A stretch of 64,000 nucleotides of DNA from Sphingomonas sp. LY54 (GTDB taxonomy: Bacteria > Pseudomonadota > Alphaproteobacteria > Sphingomonadales > Sphingomonadaceae): assembly GCF_035594035.1 (NCBI RefSeq), contig NZ_CP141588.1, positions 1,116,001 through 1,180,000 of the forward strand. The letters are read 5' to 3'. Shown one piece after another: positions 271 through 39,712 of this stretch (positions are counted from its first letter, which is position 1; every line of letters begins with the position of its first letter). Made by a program: the position numbers and the translations under genes. The notes under the pieces are model-generated. The model had not been told where the DNA came from. It did no database searches and saw only the letters and a program-made list of their open reading frames with translations.

Positions 271-924
271 TCACTTCCCGGCAGGGTCGCGATCGCGGCT
301 CAGTTCGTCCACTTCACCCATAATCGTCTGCAGCGCGGTCTTGTTGGTGTCGGTCACGTGCTCGCGCCGCGACGGCAGCTTGCCCTCGGCGAGCAGGTTT
401 TCGAGCGCGACGCGGCCGCGGGCGACGCGGCTCTTGATCGTGCCGACCGCGCAGCCGCAGATTTCGGCCGCTTCTTCATAGGCGAACCCGCCGGCACCGA
501 CCAGGATCAGCGCCTCGCGCTGCGGCTGCGGCAGGTGCATCAGCGCCCGCTGCATATCGCCCAACTCGACGTGGCGGTCCTGGCTCGCCGGCGCGGCGAG
601 CAACTTCGAGGCGGTGAGTTCGTCCCACTCACCCTTGAAGCGCGCACGGCGCATCTGGCTGAGGAAGAGGTTGCGCAGGATGATGAAGGTCCAGGCGCGC
701 ATGTTGGTGCCCGCCTGGAAGCGCTTGCGCGCCGCCCACGCCTTGAGCAGGGTTTCCTGGACGAGGTCGTCGGCGAGGTCGCGGCTACCCGAGAGCGAGC
801 GGCCGAATGCGCGCAGATGCGGGATCACTTGCGCAAGCTGGTCCTTGAACTCGTCGTCCGGGAGCGGCACCGGCTCGCTCCGGACTTCCTCTCCGTCGAT
901 CAACGCTGGCTGTTCGCCCGCCAT
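271..924 (-). CDS. ecfG: ECF sigma factor EcfG, general stress response
   Basis: RNA polymerase sigma factor of the EcfG (ECF15) group, the output of the alphaproteobacterial general stress response. Region 2 is at about residues 30-100 (LADDLVQETLLKAW, then an ILRNLFLSQMRR segment) and region 4 at about 130-185 (LPQPQREALILVGAGGFAYEEAA ... GTIKSRVARGR, the helix-turn-helix that reads the -35). I chose the ATG at 924 because AGGGG precedes it at a suitable distance and it gives 217 residues. The ATG at 963 would add 13 residues that fall inside a hairpin-rich leader. It lies downstream of a small membrane-protein gene, and the pair sits behind a perfect EcfG promoter match, implying autoregulation. 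Confidence 0.93.
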   Translation of the reverse strand: MAGEQPALIDGEEVRSEPVPLPDDEFKDQLAQVIPHLRAFGRSLSGSRDLADDLVQETLLKAWAARKRFQAGTNMRAWTFIILRNLFLSQMRRARFKGEWDELTASKLLAAPASQDRHVELGDMQRALMHLPQPQREALILVGAGGFAYEEAAEICGCAVGTIKSRVARGRVALENLLAEGKLPSRREHVTDTNKTALQTIMGEVDELSRDRDPAGK

Positions 925-965
925 CAAGCCGCCCCTAATAAGAAATTCGTGGATTGGACGCATGC

Positions 966-1225: not shown

Positions 1226-2020
1226 TTACGCCGCCGGAACGGTAGCGGTGTCGAAAAACAGGGCTTGGGCGATCGCGGCCTTCACGGTCGAACGCTGGAA
1301 CGGCTTGGTGATCAGGAAGGTCGGCTCCGGCCGCTCGCCCGTCAGCAGACGCTCGGGGAAAGCGGTGATGAAGATGACCGGCACCTGAAATTCCTGCAGG
1401 ATGTCCTTCACCGCATCGATGCCCGAACTGTCGTCGGCAAGCTGGATGTCGGCCAGCACGAGGCCGGGCCGGCGCGCCAGCGCCTGGGACACCGCTTCGT
1501 CGCGGGTCACGGCCACGCCCGTGACATTGTGGCCGAGGTCGCGAACGATCGTCTCGATGTCCATCGCAATAATCGGCTCATCCTCAATGATCAGCACTTC
1601 GGCGCGGGTCTGGCGCTCGATCTCGGCGAGCGCTTCGGCGACGAGATTGTCCACCTCTTCGGCGCTGGCGCCGATCAGGAAGCCGGCGTCCTCGGGCGTG
1701 AAACCTTCCATCGCGGTAAGAAGCAAAGCCTGGCGCGACAGCGGCGTGATCCGGGCGAGACGCTTCTGGGCGATGCCCTCCGCGTCGTGAAGATCAACGT
1801 TGGTGTCTTCCTCGATATTGCTCGACGACCAGATGGCGTGGAAGGTGCGGTAGAGACCGAGCCGGGGATCGACGTCGCGCGGGAAGTCGGCCGGCGCGGC
1901 CACGATCGCCTCCAGCGTGGCCCGGACATAATTGTCACCGTGGCTTTGGCTGCCGGTGAGAGCGCGGGCATAGCGCCGCAGAAAAGGAAGGTGGGGCGCG
2001 AGGTCCTGACCGAGCGACAT
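1226..2020 (-). CDS. phyR: PhyR anti-anti-sigma response regulator
   Basis: Stress-response regulator of 264 residues. The N-terminal sigma-like domain (about 1-130) mimics EcfG: LPFLRRYARALTGSQ, then ITPLSRQALLLTAMEGF and a degenerate region 4. The C-terminal receiver domain (about 140-264) has the acidic pair in IIEDEP, the phosphoacceptor Asp191 in LVLADIQL and the conserved Lys in LITKPF. When phosphorylated, PhyR binds NepR and frees EcfG. The start at 2020 is set by GGAG at about 2025-2030 and by the family length; the open frame continues upstream to 2164 without homology. It is divergent from nepR and phyP. Confidence 0.95.
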   Translation of the reverse strand: MSLGQDLAPHLPFLRRYARALTGSQSHGDNYVRATLEAIVAAPADFPRDVDPRLGLYRTFHAIWSSSNIEEDTNVDLHDAEGIAQKRLARITPLSRQALLLTAMEGFTPEDAGFLIGASAEEVDNLVAEALAEIERQTRAEVLIIEDEPIIAMDIETIVRDLGHNVTGVAVTRDEAVSQALARRPGLVLADIQLADDSSGIDAVKDILQEFQVPVIFITAFPERLLTGERPEPTFLITKPFQRSTVKAAIAQALFFDTATVPAA

Positions 2021-2156
2021 GGGCGTTACGACTCCTACGGTAGAATTAATGCGGTGTTGTGATGACCAGCCCCGCGCAATGCAACCCCGCCGGAACGGCG
2101 TGCTGCGGACGCAGAACGTGCAGGAGTGAACGGCCCGCCCGCTGCTCCCGATGTGT

Positions 2157-2183
2157 GGAACCATTAAGCGACTTTTTTGTTTC
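2157..2183. promoter_or_regulatory. Divergent EcfG-like promoter pair between phyR and nepR
   Basis: Plus strand: GGAAC (2157-2161), N16, TGTT (2178-2181), one mismatch to consensus and directed at nepR. Minus strand: GAAAC (2183-2179), N16, GGTT (2162-2159), two mismatches and directed at phyR. The two reads overlap because the outer boxes form an imperfect palindrome (GGAACC ... GTTTCC). Leaders would be about 130 nt to each gene. The sequence match is seen; function is inferred. Confidence 0.5.
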
Positions 2184-2322: not shown

Positions 2323-2529
2323 TTGACCTTTGCTAGTGAAAAGGATGGCGACCGCCGGCGCAAATCCGATCCCGTCTCCGACGTTGATAGTTCCATGCAG
2401 AAGCCACGCTCCTCGAAGCGAGCGAACGGGAATCCCGAAGTGGGATCGGCGCTGCGCTCCGTCTATCAGCGCACGATCGACGAAGACATTCCCCCCGAGA
2501 TGCTCGACCTGCTCGGAAAGCTTGGTTAA
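2323..2529 (+). CDS. nepR: NepR anti-sigma factor
   Basis: Canonical NepR: the conserved core is at the C-terminus (VGSALRSVYQRTIDEDIP, then PEMLDLLGKLG), preceded by a basic, disordered tail. It holds EcfG inactive until phospho-PhyR binds it. I chose the TTG at 2323 (68 aa) because GAGGGG sits 9 nt upstream. The in-frame ATG at 2395 (44 aa) has no Shine-Dalgarno and would leave an unusually short protein. The phyP-like kinase gene begins 27 bp downstream, so the two form an operon divergent from phyR. Confidence 0.9.
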   Translation: MTFASEKDGDRRRKSDPVSDVDSSMQKPRSSKRANGNPEVGSALRSVYQRTIDEDIPPEMLDLLGKLG

Positions 2530-2556: not shown

Positions 2557-4131
2557 ATGAGCCGCGACGACGCTAGCTGGTTTGCAACGCGCATCGGACG
2601 CCTCTCCACGGGCGTGAAGATGCTGCTCATCCTCAGTCTGGGCCTTTTCCCGCTCGGGCTGATTGCTATCCTCGCCTCGATCGAGAGCGCCCGCGACGGC
2701 CGCGAACGCCGCACCGAACAGACCCTGACCCGCCTCGAGATCAAGGCGGACAGCATCGAGACCCTGCTGTCCCACAGCGCCGCGACAGTGCGCGCGGCGA
2801 GCGGCGCGATCTCGCTCTCACCCGCCGATCCAGTTGTCTGCCGCAATACGCTCCAGCGGCTCGCTCGCGGCGAAGCGCGGCGAGCCCGTTACGCGCTTTA
2901 TGGTGAAGACGGTGGGTTGCGTTGCTCAACCCCCGGCTTCGCACCGCCGCCGTTCCCGCGCGTGGCAGCGCAGGATGCCATCGCCCAAATCACTCCGAAC
3001 GGCGAAAAGCTGCATTACGTGTTGTTCGGTACGAACGGTCGGATCGAGGGAGCCGCCGAATTCAGCCGCGCAAGCCTCGCCGACCTGACCCTCATCCCGG
3101 GAACGGCGGACAATTTCGATCTTGAACTGGTTCAGGGTCAAAGGCGCATGATGCTGCGCGACGGCTATGAGCCGGGGACCTTGGTTGAAACCGTGCGCGG
3201 GTCGAAGGTAATCGCACAGGGCACGTTGCAATTGCGCATCGTCTTGGGCGCGCCGCCCGTCAATGCGCTCGATGCGCTCATCGTCCTGATGCCGGTGATG
3301 ATGTGGATCTTCGCGGCCATCATCGGCTGGATTATCGTCGATCGCCTTCTCCTGCGTCCGCTGGTGCGGATGCAGCGCGCGGTCGCTGCCTACCAGCCCG
3401 GCGACGAGCATCTCGACCTGCCGACCTTGTCGACGCCGGCGCGCGAAATCAGCGACCTCGGCCGCGCCTTCGACCAGGTTACGCAGACCGTGGCCCGCCA
3501 CGAGGCCGAACTCGAGGCCGCCGTAGAGCGCCAGACCAAGCTCGTCCGCGAGGTCCACCATCGCGTGAAGAACAACCTCCAGGTGGTCGCCTCCTTGCTC
3601 AACCTCCACGCGCGCGGCGCCGCCAACGAGGAGGTCTCGGCCGCTTATGCGTCGATCCAGCGGCGCGTGGACGCGCTCGCGGTCGTCCATCGCAATCATT
3701 ATGCAGAGCTCGAGGAAAATCGCGGGGTGGCCGTGCGCTCGCTGATTTCGGAGCTCGGCGCCAACCTGCGCGGCACCGCCCCCCCGTCGGCGGCGCATAT
3801 GACGATCCGTCTCGACGTCGAGCCTTATTATGTGACCCAGGACGTGGCCGTATCGGTGGCGTTCCTGATCACCGAGATCGTCGAGTTCGCGATGTTCTGC
3901 GGCGCCAAGGCCGTCACCATTTCCCTGGACGGGGAAAATGATACGGGCGCGACGCTCAGGGTGGAGTCGGAGAGCCTGAAGGGCGGGGTGCCCTGCGACG
4001 AGAAGCTCACAGAGCGCTTTGACCGCATCGTCACCGGCCTGTCGCGCCAGCTCCGCTCGACGCTCGAACGCGACACCGACGAGGGCCGCTATTCGGTGCG
4101 GATCTCGGTTCTGGAAAAGGCCGAGCGCTAG
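2557..4131 (+). CDS. phyP: PhyP-like membrane sensor histidine kinase / PhyR phosphatase
   Basis: A 524-residue membrane protein: TM1 at about 24-45, a periplasmic sensor region, TM2 at about 245-268, a HAMP-like segment, then a HisKA_2-type dimerisation domain with His335 in HHRVKNNLQVV. The C-terminal ATPase region is degenerate. Where an ELVTNAL-type N-box is expected it reads ITEIVEFAM, with no Asn, and no clear G-boxes follow. This fits PhyP of Sphingomonas, a negative regulator at the phyR locus thought to dephosphorylate PhyR, better than an active kinase. It is the second gene of the nepR operon. The assignment rests on domain order, locus position and the missing Asn. Confidence 0.85.
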   Translation: MSRDDASWFATRIGRLSTGVKMLLILSLGLFPLGLIAILASIESARDGRERRTEQTLTRLEIKADSIETLLSHSAATVRAASGAISLSPADPVVCRNTLQRLARGEARRARYALYGEDGGLRCSTPGFAPPPFPRVAAQDAIAQITPNGEKLHYVLFGTNGRIEGAAEFSRASLADLTLIPGTADNFDLELVQGQRRMMLRDGYEPGTLVETVRGSKVIAQGTLQLRIVLGAPPVNALDALIVLMPVMMWIFAAIIGWIIVDRLLLRPLVRMQRAVAAYQPGDEHLDLPTLSTPAREISDLGRAFDQVTQTVARHEAELEAAVERQTKLVREVHHRVKNNLQVVASLLNLHARGAANEEVSAAYASIQRRVDALAVVHRNHYAELEENRGVAVRSLISELGANLRGTAPPSAAHMTIRLDVEPYYVTQDVAVSVAFLITEIVEFAMFCGAKAVTISLDGENDTGATLRVESESLKGGVPCDEKLTERFDRIVTGLSRQLRSTLERDTDEGRYSVRISVLEKAER

Positions 4132-4140
4132 GCCCGCGCC

Positions 4141-4326
4141 TCAGCCGGTGCGATCGTCGCGGCTCTTCTCATCGGAATAAGGCGGGCGCCCGACATTCTC
4201 CTGGCGGGCGCGTTCCAGGTCTCCGCCGGCCTGATCCAGAGCCGCCGCAACGTCGGTGTTGCGCTCCCCGTCCTCATGCACGCCGTCAATATCGGAATGT
4301 GGCGGCGTCTTCGGTGGTTTGCTCAT
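4141..4326 (-). CDS. Small hydrophilic protein of unknown function (61 aa)
   Basis: A 61-residue polar, probably disordered protein (MSKPPKTPPHSDIDGVHEDG ...) with a good AAGGAG site before the ATG at 4326; the frame's upstream extension to 4395 has no ribosome site. It converges on phyP with 9 bp between the stops. I recognise no domain. Its position at the edge of the stress locus suggests, but does not show, a stress-related role. Confidence 0.65.
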   Translation of the reverse strand: MSKPPKTPPHSDIDGVHEDGERNTDVAAALDQAGGDLERARQENVGRPPYSDEKSRDDRTG

Positions 4327-4432
4327 GTCATGCTCCTTTGGAGCCACAACCGGTGGCGGCGCGGCTCGGTTGCCTCCCCGGCTGTGGCGGTTCAACTTTC
4401 TCGCGCTTTCGGCAAAATTTTTGAGCGCTGCG

Positions 4433-4457
4433 GGAACCCGGTTCGACCTGCCACGTT
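4433..4457 (+). promoter_or_regulatory. Perfect sigma-EcfG promoter with no ORF immediately downstream
   Basis: GGAAC (4433-4437), N16, CGTT (4454-4457): an exact consensus match, oriented rightward. The nearest start codon downstream is 270 bp away, but two strong hairpins follow at once. It is best explained as the promoter of a small RNA. Confidence 0.75.
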
Positions 4458-4463
4458 CTGCTA

Positions 4464-4565
4464 TTCGGATAGTGACCTTTTGCCCCCCCGCTCTCGCTAT
4501 CCAGAAAATGAGCCCGGACGCGCCAACCTCCCCCCCCCGGTGGCGCCTCCGGGCTCAACATTTTT
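4464..4565 (+). ncRNA. Candidate EcfG-dependent small RNA with two C-rich hairpin loops (GsrN-like)
   Basis: Starting 6-8 nt after a perfect EcfG -10 box, the sequence can fold into two hairpins. Hairpin 1 pairs 4467-4475 (GGATAGTGA) with 4494-4502 over 9 bp including one G-U, leaving an 18-nt loop with seven Cs at 4483-4489. Hairpin 2 pairs 4510-4518 with 4548-4556 (9 bp, GAGCCCGGA/TCCGGGCTC) and, past a C-C mismatch, 4520-4525 with 4541-4546 (GCGCCA/TGGCGC). Its loop has CCTCC at 4527-4531 inside a run of nine Cs. TTTTT follows at 4561-4565. Promoter, about 100-nt size and CCUCC-type loops are the features of GsrN, the Caulobacter stress sRNA that pairs with G-rich mRNA leaders. No similarity search was possible, so the GsrN link is by architecture. 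Confidence 0.65.
4510..4565 (+). terminator. Intrinsic terminator of the candidate sRNA
   Basis: A 9-bp plus 6-bp stem (4510-4525 with 4541-4556) with one mismatch, followed after AACA by TTTTT at 4561-4565. It would end transcription from the EcfG promoter at 4433-4457, about 160 bp before the next gene. Confidence 0.65.
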
Positions 4566-4727
4566 GGGCTTTCTCCGGATATTTCCGCTCCTTCGGCCCC
4601 TTCCCCACCTTCCCCTCACCGTTCTCCGCGCACTGCTCGTGACGCCAGTGGAACCAACCTTGCGTCCAGAGGATTTACCCTCGCACCTCGTAAGCCGAGC
4701 GGGCGTGTCGAGTTGAGGAGAAACATC
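4566..4727 (+). other. Intergenic stretch before the entericidin-like genes
   Basis: Together with the sRNA region this is a 400-bp gap without a protein gene. The part after the sRNA terminator is pyrimidine-rich on the plus strand. It holds GGAAC at 4650-4654, but no CGTT lies at 16-17 bp, so I do not call it an EcfG promoter. It must contain the promoter of the gene at 4728; none stands out. Confidence 0.3.
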
Positions 4728-4862
4728 ATGGTTCGTAAGATTATCGCCATCATCGCCATTTCGAGCAGCCTGACGCTGGCCGCTTGCAACACGGTCCGCG
4801 GCGCCGCCAATGACGTCCAGTCTGCCGGCGACTGCGTCGATGGCCGTGAGGGCAATTGCTGA
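4728..4862 (+). CDS. Entericidin-like small lipoprotein 1 (44 aa)
   Basis: A 44-residue protein: lipoprotein signal peptide with lipobox LAAC (Cys20), then NTVRGAANDVQSAG, typical of the entericidin EcnA/EcnB family of small envelope lipoproteins. GAGGAG lies 8 bp upstream of the ATG. The tail has two extra cysteines (DCVDGREGNC). It is a paralogue of the gene at 5039, with its own terminator. The family's exact role in alphaproteobacteria is unknown to me. Confidence 0.85.
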   Translation: MVRKIIAIIAISSSLTLAACNTVRGAANDVQSAGDCVDGREGNC

Positions 4863-5038: not shown

Positions 5039-5167
5039 ATGATCCGTAAGGCCCTCAACATCGCCCTCATCTCGGGCGCCCTCGTGACCCTCGTCGCCTG
5101 CAACACCGTCCGTGGCGCGGGCGAGGATCTCCAGTCGGCCAGCAACGCCGTCGACAACAAGATGTAA
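5039..5167 (+). CDS. Entericidin-like small lipoprotein 2 (42 aa)
   Basis: A 42-residue lipoprotein with lipobox LVAC (Cys21) followed by NTVRGAGEDLQSASNAVD, the entericidin EcnA/EcnB pattern. It shares NTVRGA and the following D/LQSA with the gene at 4728, so the two are a tandem duplication. A GGAGAG ribosome site lies just upstream. It lacks the extra C-terminal cysteines of its neighbour. Confidence 0.85.
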   Translation: MIRKALNIALISGALVTLVACNTVRGAGEDLQSASNAVDNKM

Positions 5168-5227: not shown

Positions 5228-6961
5228 TCAGACGAGATCGTCGGGAATGAAGAAATAGGGGCGCGAGAAGCGCCGCGCCCGGCTAAGCTGATAAGGAACG
5301 ACGAAGCCCTGCCGATCCGCGGGTTCGGCGCTGCCATTGCGTCGCGCGATATCGCGCCACCCTTCGAGATCCATGCTTTCGGGCGGGGTGCCGCCGAACA
5401 ATTGCGACCAGAGCCGGCGCTTGAAGTCGCCGATCGCGGGCCCGGTTTCGTGCCAGATGAAGCCCAGTTCCGTGTCCCAATCGAAGCTGCGGCCGTTGAT
5501 ATTGGCCGACGAGAGCAGACAGGTCGCGTCGTCGGCGATCAGCAGCTTGGAATGGATGTGGATGAGGCCCGACCCGTAAGCCGTGCCGCGTGTGTCTTCG
5601 AACTGCTTCTCGTCCGCCTTGACCGGCTCCTGCTTGGCGAGCGTGAACAGCCCGATCCGGTCGGGCCCGGCCTTGCGCAGCAGCCTACCCAACGCCCGCG
5701 CCTGGAGATATTCGCCGTAGCGGTGGGCGAGATTGCCGGTCTGCCCCTCGAACGCTATCTCCTCGGGCGTGTTGGCGATCAGGATGATCACCTCCAGCGC
5801 GGGGCTGGCCCGCAGCGCCTCCTCGACCCACTCCGCGGCCTCGTCGGAGCGGAAGAATTGCGCTTCGATATAAAGCTGCCGGCGGGCGGCGAGGATCAGC
5901 TGGCGGTGGGCAGCCTTGAGTTCGCGAATGCCGTGCACCGGCCCCCTCGCGAACGCCGCGTCCGACTTGCGCGACAGGGTCCGTGCCAGCTGGACGCGCG
6001 CCTCGCCCTTGTTCGACTGCTCGGCAACGGAGGAAAGCGGGATTTCGGAGAGCGGGTCGAGCATCAGGGGCCGGTCGCAGCCGCTCGTCCATTCCTGGAC
6101 CGTCGCGCGGTAGCGCGGCAACTCGTGGTTCCAGAGCCGGGCGAAATGCCGCGCCGCATCCGCGACCACCGGACCTTCGACCAAAGCGGAGATATCGTGC
6201 CAGGTGCGGTCCGCGCGCTGCTTGTGGCGGCGGTCGTCCCAGCGCCGCTCGTTGAGATCGAGCCCGCCGATGATCGCATGTTCGCCGTCGATCACGACGA
6301 ATTTCTGGTGGTAGGTCGCGGGCCACAGCCGCGGCGGGGCGCCCGGCTTCCATTTTTTGGGCTTGTCCGCTTCCCAGGCAACGTAATTCCACAGGCCCGG
6401 ACGCGTCTTCAGCCCGCCATCCTCGGCGTCTTTCTTGTCGAGCAAACTCGCGACCAGCGACCGGATCTTGCGCCGGCTCGCCAGCCGCAGCAGCTGGCGC
6501 CATCCACGGCCGACCTCGCCCTCATGCTGGATCACGATCAGCTGCAGATGCTTGGCCCTGTCGTCGCCAAGGTCCTCGACCAGGGCTCTTACCGCGTGGA
6601 AGGTGCACCATGAGCCGGCATGGAGATAATCGGCAAGCACCGGTTCGAAGTCGGTGAGCAGGATGCGCACCTCCACGCCTCGCTGCGCCGCGTCGCGGAT
6701 CAAGGCGGCCCAGTCCTCCAGGCCGCGTTCCTTGGCCCTGTCCGAGCGAGTCTTGGTGGCCGGATCGAAGATGCGGAACGCCAGCCAGATCGACTTTTTT
6801 GCATCGAGCACGAGATGCTCGAGCGTCGGATACATGTCGGCGGCTTCGATGAGCGGTGTGACGCGGCAGCCGTCGCGCGGCGGGGCCGGGCGCGTCCAGT
6901 CCTGGCCGTTCTCTATCGCCAGCATGGCGTTCGCCGCATCGATAAACGGCGCCTCATACAT
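5228..6961 (-). CDS. Phospholipase D / cardiolipin synthase-like protein
   Basis: A 577-residue phospholipase D superfamily protein with both HKD motifs: H218-x-K220-x4-D225 (HQKFVVIDG, followed by GGLDLN) and H470-x-K472 (IHSKLLIADD, followed by SSANINGRSFDWD). Members make or break phosphodiester bonds in phospholipids. No signal peptide or membrane segment is obvious. The ATG at 6961 overlaps the tatC stop as TGATG, so it is translationally coupled to the tat genes. Large inserts around the first HKD (about 145-215) make it longer than a minimal PLD. The substrate is unknown. Confidence 0.88.
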   Translation of the reverse strand: MYEAPFIDAANAMLAIENGQDWTRPAPPRDGCRVTPLIEAADMYPTLEHLVLDAKKSIWLAFRIFDPATKTRSDRAKERGLEDWAALIRDAAQRGVEVRILLTDFEPVLADYLHAGSWCTFHAVRALVEDLGDDRAKHLQLIVIQHEGEVGRGWRQLLRLASRRKIRSLVASLLDKKDAEDGGLKTRPGLWNYVAWEADKPKKWKPGAPPRLWPATYHQKFVVIDGEHAIIGGLDLNERRWDDRRHKQRADRTWHDISALVEGPVVADAARHFARLWNHELPRYRATVQEWTSGCDRPLMLDPLSEIPLSSVAEQSNKGEARVQLARTLSRKSDAAFARGPVHGIRELKAAHRQLILAARRQLYIEAQFFRSDEAAEWVEEALRASPALEVIILIANTPEEIAFEGQTGNLAHRYGEYLQARALGRLLRKAGPDRIGLFTLAKQEPVKADEKQFEDTRGTAYGSGLIHIHSKLLIADDATCLLSSANINGRSFDWDTELGFIWHETGPAIGDFKRRLWSQLFGGTPPESMDLEGWRDIARRNGSAEPADRQGFVVPYQLSRARRFSRPYFFIPDDLV

Positions 6962-7734
6962 CAAAGAAGTTCGGATCCCGTCTTCTCGCGGCTGCGGCGG
7001 CGCTCGGTGAACCAGATCGCGATCAGCGAAATTTCATAAAGCAGGATCAGCGGGATCGCGAGCATGAACTGGGACAATACGTCGGGTGGCGTCGCCACCG
7101 CGGCCACGACGAAGGCGACCAGCACGGCATAGCGGCGGCCGCGCTTTAGCTGGTCGCGCGTCACCAGCCCGGCCCGTTCGACCAGCATCAGCAGCACCGG
7201 CAGTAGGAAGGCTATTCCGAAGGCGAGGATGAAGTGCATGACGAAGGACAGATATTCGCCCATCGCCGGCAGCGCTTCCTGCGCAATCCCCGGGATCTGG
7301 CCCTGATAGCCGAGGAAGAAGCGGATCGCCGTCGGCATCACGACGTAATAAGCAAGCGCGGCGCCGAGCAGGAACAGCACGGGCGTCGCGATCAGGAAGG
7401 GCAGGAAGGCTCTCTTTTCCTTGGCGTAGAGGCCGGGCGCGACGAACGCCCAAATCTGGTTGGCGATCACCGGGAAGGCGAGGAAGAAGGCGGCGAATAA
7501 CGCCACCCGCACCTCGACAAAGAAGGCCTCGTAGAGCTTCGTGTAGACCAGCCGCCCCTGCCCCGCGCCGAACCCGGCGATCAGCGGCTGCGCCAGGAAG
7601 GCGAAGATCTTGTCGGCGAAATAGAAGCACACGCCGAAGCACACGAACAAGGCCGCGGCCGACCAGATCAGCCGCCGGCGCAGCTCGATCAGATGGTCCA
7701 TCAAGGGCGCACGGCTCTCGTCGATCTCGCTCAT
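6961..7734 (-). CDS. tatC: Sec-independent translocase subunit TatC
   Basis: A 257-residue polytopic membrane protein, the twin-arginine signal receptor of the Tat exporter. It begins [20 protein letters not shown], the conserved N-terminal motif, and has six hydrophobic segments with the [18 protein letters not shown] loop after TM2. The start overlaps tatB by 4 bp (ATGA), and the stop overlaps the phospholipase D gene by 1 bp. Confidence 0.97.
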
Positions 7735-39521: not shown

Positions 39522-39712
39522 TGCCGTACCGATAGCACTTGAATTCGCCCCCGCCTCCCATATTTTGAAGGAGCGGACCGGGCCCCTCTGGCGGCTGTCC
39601 CTGCGACAGTCGTGATGTCGGACCGCATCGGGTTAGCTCGATGCAGGTTCAATTGCCCCTGTCTCTGCATCAGCTAGCCCGATCGATTTCACATCGATTG
39701 AGGAAGCTGAAC

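Follow-up and report, generated by a model that had tools for sequence, protein, structure and literature searches.

On the evidence of sequence comparison, the general stress locus of Sphingomonas sp. LY54 contains a real, conserved RNA gene, recognised by its structure, its EcfG-type promoter box and its locus. It lies in the window, the whole 64-kb stretch of DNA that was analysed, and appears to represent an RNA family that is new but of a familiar type, the EcfG-linked C-loop small RNAs (sRNAs), whose action probably resembles that of GsrN and 6C/B11. The full proposal, an EcfG-driven trans-acting sRNA whose C-loops pair with G-rich leaders, is considered likely; within it, we infer the transcription under stress, the pairing by the loops, the targets and the sign of regulation. 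The features of the gene and of its neighbours are collected in Table 1.

Table 1. Features of the candidate sRNA gene and its stress locus (positions in the window)
Feature	Position	Strand	Details
EcfG-type promoter GGAAC-N16-CGTT of the sRNA	4433..4457	+	GGAAC 4433-4437, 16 nt, CGTT 4454-4457
sRNA gene (model span)	4463..4562	+	predicted 5' end ~4464, predicted 3' end ~4562-4566
Hairpin 1	4467..4502	+	stem 4467-4475/4494-4502, 9 bp; loop 4476-4493 CCTTTTGCCCCCCCGCTC, C7 at 4483-4489
Hairpin 2	4510..4556	+	outer stem 4510-4518/4548-4556 (9 bp), inner stem 4520-4525/4541-4546 (6 bp); in the loop, CCT 4527-4529 and C9 4530-4538
T5 tract TTTTT, possible terminator tail	4561..4565	+	4 nt beyond the stem
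ecfG, general stress sigma factor	271..963	-	ORF; ECF sigma families; EcfG identity from gene neighbourhood
phyR, anti-anti-sigma response regulator	1226..2164	-	NF006623 at 377 bits, above cut-off; actual start probably around 2014
nepR, anti-sigma factor	2323..2529	+	ORF; presumed NepR, judged by position and typical NepR features
phyP, kinase-like regulator preceding the sRNA	2557..4131	+	ORF; PhyK-like match below cut-off
tatC, usual convergent downstream gene in relatives	6961..7734	-	here entericidin-like genes and a PLD-like gene intervene

An earlier note on this DNA described an exact EcfG box followed by two C-loop hairpins, and this description is borne out by the sequence and by fold statistics. 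The predicted fold of 4464-4570 has a minimum free energy (MFE) of -48 kcal/mol (z -5.4), and equal stability was reached in 0 of 200 shuffles. The covariance model R1, which counts the window among its building sequences, matches the model span at 112.8 bits. GGAAC-N15..18-CGTT occurs six times in the 64 kb compared with 1.55 expected, and 1 of 100 shuffles contained as many. Hairpin 1 presents the likely pairing site in its loop; hairpin 2 probably serves both as a second pairing site and as the stem of the terminator. The T5 tract is 4 nt off the stem, a strict terminator scan (loops of 3-8 only) reported no terminator there, and the T-tract is uneven in relatives, so that hairpin 2 with the T5 tract is no more than a plausible terminator. 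Thus, of the complete sRNA gene once proposed, the promoter, stems and C-loops stand as conserved elements, while the terminator is to be called plausible.

The interval had also been described as a region without an ORF, which was loosely worded. It is crossed by open frames at 4256-4642 (+), 4276-4716 (+) and 4328-4561 (-). Among relatives, 33 of 36 rows keep one forward frame open (one row was empty), so the count of open frames alone is insufficient to exclude a protein. The C-runs, however, differ by single nucleotides among relatives, and the covarying stems change by compensation; the protein-coding reading is therefore rejected.

BLAST detected a single copy in the genome itself. Within the genus, a match was present in all 26 genomes, 25 of them clear and the last (G019) a 27-nt match with E 0.005; across the family, 53 of 199 genomes were matched. 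R1, a first covariance model built from 49 sequences, detected the RNA at E 0.01 in 156 of 397 genomes from the family, spread over 44 of 96 genera. A second model, R2, built from 40 sequences that are mostly one per genus, detected it at E 0.001 in 79 of 199 genomes and 41 of 96 genera. Large covariance-model searches were run with strict filters, under which R1 found only two matches in a class-wide sample of 385 genomes, both in Sphingomonadaceae. Alignment A1, drawn from 54 BLAST loci, left out two short chance matches (L026, L027), the locus that is the window itself (L028) and two near copies (L008, L011); alignment A3 left out L087. A further set of copies was selected solely on a 21-nt stretch of loop and stem 1. 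Its listing holds at least 120 stretches, the best 80 of which are all from sphingomonads or from unclassified Alphaproteobacteria or Sphingomonadales bins. This set and the loci taken from the surveyed genomes are not independent, since 35 of the at least 120 listed stretches are identical to loci of the latter.

The family counts are lower bounds, because copies too diverged for the models may exist elsewhere in those genomes; some genera without model detection do have such a copy, for example g25. In genera lacking a clear match, 30 genomes were inspected: an exact EcfG box was found near tatC in nine, but only in g25 (L300) could a C-loop RNA be seen by eye behind such a box. Run over these 30 loci, R2 gave 25.5 bits for L300 (E 0.0011) and otherwise only the chance-level L278 (13.7 bits, E 0.42). 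The g25 copies (L300/L338 in G049 and L337 in G193, in genomes of ~2.1 Mb) form a divergent homologue with an EcfG box and two C-loops, which may be a known but unplaced sRNA of that genus. Most genera where the model finds no RNA still have PhyR; the stress response can therefore do without it.

Covariation supports the stems. In the 49-sequence alignment, made by sequence alone with the structure predicted from the same sequences, two-sided changes were observed in 18 of 26 pairs; in the 40-sequence alignment, fitted to the model in a way that favours covariation, they were observed in 24 of 26. In both cases, 0 of 500 shuffles were as high. The helix of hairpin 2 showed changes on both sides in 13 of its 15 pairs, and sliding the stem partner by 1-3 columns abolished the covariation signal.

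The promoter box is similarly conserved. Among the matches listed, 119 distinct loop-chosen copies had enough upstream sequence, and GGAAC-N16/17-NGTT precedes 117 of them, compared with 0.67 expected from dinucleotide shuffles; the two copies that lack it carry GGAAC together with an ATT. The distance from the end of the box to the 21-nt core is exactly 20 nt for 113 of these 117, again among the matches listed, and 19 or 21 nt for the others. Elsewhere in the same loci, 68 of 5649 windows of 90 nt contained such a box. An EcfG box is present in 37 of the 40 model-chosen representatives; in L093 and L100 the -35 element is altered, and L087 has no box. Three genomes checked in genus g21 were without a real PhyR, and six genomes checked for EcfG comprised three with none, one with a distant relative and two with a relative at 50-53%. 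G357, a member of g21 with a 53% EcfG relative, has three model matches of the RNA: L093 with its altered -35, and L339 and L340 without a canonical box in the 60 nt upstream. Conservation of the promoter, stems and C-loops in relatives, on which the earlier note had staked its case, is thus found by BLAST, covariance models, covariation and box counts alike.

The locus is conserved as well. In the window, the gene order is ecfG(-), phyR(-), nepR(+), phyP(+), RNA(+), and an EcfG box on the minus strand between phyR and ecfG (1216-1192) precedes a small frame and ecfG. In the testable loop-chosen loci among the matches listed, phyP is upstream in 98 of 103, EcfG is present in 46 of 49, and a convergent tatC is downstream in 53 of 55, in agreement with the suggested placement just outside phyP. 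In the stretches fetched for the 40 representatives, EcfG was found in 27 and tatC in 35, with tatC but no EcfG in 10 (including the short contig L100). The order phyP - RNA - tatC is usually kept among relatives.

Several neighbouring features were also observed. Two tandem small lipoprotein genes (4728-4862 and 5039-5167, +), which from their N-termini we take to be entericidin-like, are each preceded by GGAAC-N17-xATT, as seen by eye. An entericidin-like gene is also located 3' of the RNA in g25 (L300), and in g30 (L280) an EcfG box leads straight into one. A 61-aa gene at 4141-4326 (-), between phyP and the RNA, has relatives in 3 of the 40 loci and gave no NCBIfam match. Farther away, a terC RNA (RF03067) is present at 39570-39630 (+) with 61.1 bits, over the gathering score, and a second ECF sigma gene with 39% identity to EcfG is found in the same genome at G000:C1:3033192-3033662.

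In the 49-sequence set, loop 1 is nearly invariant and conserved well beyond the C-run, including UUUU and GCUC, while stem 2 varies through compensatory changes. Of the 40 representatives, 13 keep the 21-nt loop/stem core letter for letter, which indicates that conservation concerns the C-run and the structure more than every letter. The longest C-run of the 5' part is 6-8 in 36 representatives, 9 in L088, 5 in L120, 4 in L100 and 3 in L087. A natural stem-swap experiment is provided by a paralogue in G247 (L343, 3316-3440), in which stem 1 and the second hairpin are largely different and the 22-nt loop GACCTTTTGCCCCCCCGCTCTC is identical. Because this loop and an EcfG box are retained with a largely different stem, loop 1 is probably the working part of the RNA. 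Another divergent EcfG-linked copy (L344) was observed in G030.

When the window interval and seven related loci were searched for known RNAs, no Rfam 15 family came up at gathering score. The 6C RNA has two hairpins with a run of at least 6 C in each loop. The present RNA has the same two-hairpin, C-run layout (4483-4489 and 4530-4538), although the 5'-part run is shorter than 6 in 3 of the 40 representatives. The 6C family itself gave no match at gathering score, and none up to E 5 on 4380-4740. The 6C RNA and B11 sRNA of Actinobacteria belong to another phylum and another promoter class; their likeness is architectural and probably convergent. Streptomyces Scr3202 (RF02833) shares the two-hairpin layout and C6 loops and aligns over its full length, but at 25.2 bits, below its gathering score of 52, and it too is from another phylum. 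The alphaproteobacterial ar14 (RF02344) shares the C-rich loop motifs CCUCCUCCC, but scores 17.9 bits against a gathering score of 58.8 and has three hairpins in its model. Rhizobium etli ReC64 and other GsrN-like RNAs are, in the accessible text, EcfG-dependent non-coding RNAs adjoining the phyR locus; ReC64, compared by description, differs in its length of 88 nt and its gene order (PMC3892343). No description of the RNA was found in open-licence literature without supplements, where a supplementary transcript table could still list it, nor did a term search of the accessible portions of Sphingomonas and Sphingopyxis stress-regulon papers find such an RNA.

The closest comparison in kind is with GsrN of Caulobacter crescentus, which shares the EcfG-type promoter, the length of ~100 nt, the exposed C-run near the 5' end and the tie to the general stress response. 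The GsrN-type features found here are the EcfG-type promoter directly upstream and the C-rich loop in the 5' hairpin; GsrN itself is further marked by its pairing with the katG leader, its cleavage to a 5' isoform and an Hfq effect. By analogy with the description of GsrN, the RNA probably acts like it. We count Erythrobacter litoralis as a sphingomonad. In the available text of the GsrN study, this species is an outgroup with no apparent gsrN-like gene, BLAST matches of GsrN are confined to Caulobacteraceae, the C. crescentus gsrN is away from the general stress response (GSR) locus, and one C-rich 5' loop is described, in contrast to the two C-loops of the present RNA (PMC5869019).

A true orthologue of GsrN, that is, an ancestral EcfG-dependent alphaproteobacterial sRNA diverged beyond sequence recognition, would also have the same promoter class, a similar length and a C-rich 5' loop, and gsrN-like genes of other groups are likewise near the GSR locus according to the same available text (PMC5869019). 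Such an ancestry seems possible but rather doubtful. R1, under strict filters, found none outside the family in the 385 class genomes, and 28 EcfG-like loci of the class (L309-L336, with ~1.5-kb flanks; L309 is of this family) showed no C-loop hairpin behind an EcfG box with a spacer of 14-16. R2 was empty in 27 of these 28, although the flanks are short and many of the sigma factors may not be true EcfG. The idea of a sphingomonad counterpart to GsrN accordingly holds for promoter class and 5' C-loop; a common origin of the two would be a further claim.

In the proposed mechanism, an sRNA of ~100 nt would be transcribed by EcfG-RNA polymerase once PhyR releases EcfG from NepR, a prediction from the promoter sequence. 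Its two hairpins would display the C-rich loops CCUUUUGCCCCCCCGCUC and ACCUCCCCCCCCC. These would pair in trans with G-rich stretches in the leaders of mRNAs, probably within or close to the ribosome-binding site, and alter the translation or stability of the paired mRNAs. The available texts report that the GsrN C-loop pairs with a G-tract of the katG leader (PMC5869019) and that B11 represses via either loop, with a G6 tract in a target leader (eccB4) (PMC10470900); by analogy with these two, pairing with G-rich leaders is the most likely role of the C-loops.

Prediction of G-rich mRNA targets, which had been suggested as a check, established none. G6-N3..11-RTG occurs 162 times in the genome, compared with 85 for the reversed pattern. 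Among 30 of the 162 listed loci (27 distinct sites), the candidate proteins behind the leaders were inspected by their N-termini, and we take them to include ZapA-like, TonB-receptor-like and HprK-like proteins and an ABC ATPase. G6-N3..11-ATG was enriched alike in 38 genomes with and 54 genomes without detected RNA (median ratio 4.9 versus 4.4, p 0.14); the latter group may include missed copies. No target is therefore claimed. These 92 of the 199 genomes comprise the first of most genera and the LY54 genome itself; left out were G032, which had no matches, and G106, which is incomplete. In a duplex scan of 51 window ORFs, the PhyR, PhyP and TatC leaders had no G6 site and ordinary duplex energies and were thus poor partners; the ecfG and nepR leaders lie outside the scored set.

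That the placement of G-tracts is independent of the presence of the RNA would also agree with a role mainly as sponge or ligand in place of a pairing sRNA, the partner being a protein, such as a C-run-binding regulator, or a second RNA. The conservation of loop 1 beyond the C-run in the 49-sequence set (UUUU, GCUC), unneeded for loose G-tract pairing, points the same way. This role is judged improbable, since both characterised C-loop sRNAs, GsrN and B11, act through base pairing in the available texts (PMC5869019, PMC10470900). A slightly slimmer chance is given to a decoy role in which the loops imitate the 16S anti-Shine-Dalgarno tail, by which an abundant RNA would cover G-rich ribosome-binding sites under stress and shift the whole proteome, with the 22-nt loop 1 locking one dominant conserved mRNA or protein partner. 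The view of the hairpins as the mere 3' end of the nepR-phyP transcript, or as a terminator against the convergent tatC operon without trans activity, fits the site between phyP and tatC in most relatives and the little that g4 (L087/L341) retains there beyond hairpin 2, but is very hard to reconcile with an EcfG box of its own (117 of 119 among the matches listed), with conserved loops that a terminator does not need, and with the occurrence of the RNA at loci away from ecfG.

As a pairing C-loop sRNA, the RNA would give the general stress response of sphingomonads a post-transcriptional arm and, by analogy with GsrN and B11, probably tunes protein output during stress. The stem-swap paralogue offers a ready hypothesis on which nucleotides matter. 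A family-wide RNA gene in the core stress locus would make this arm testable in the sphingomonads, a group that includes genetic models.
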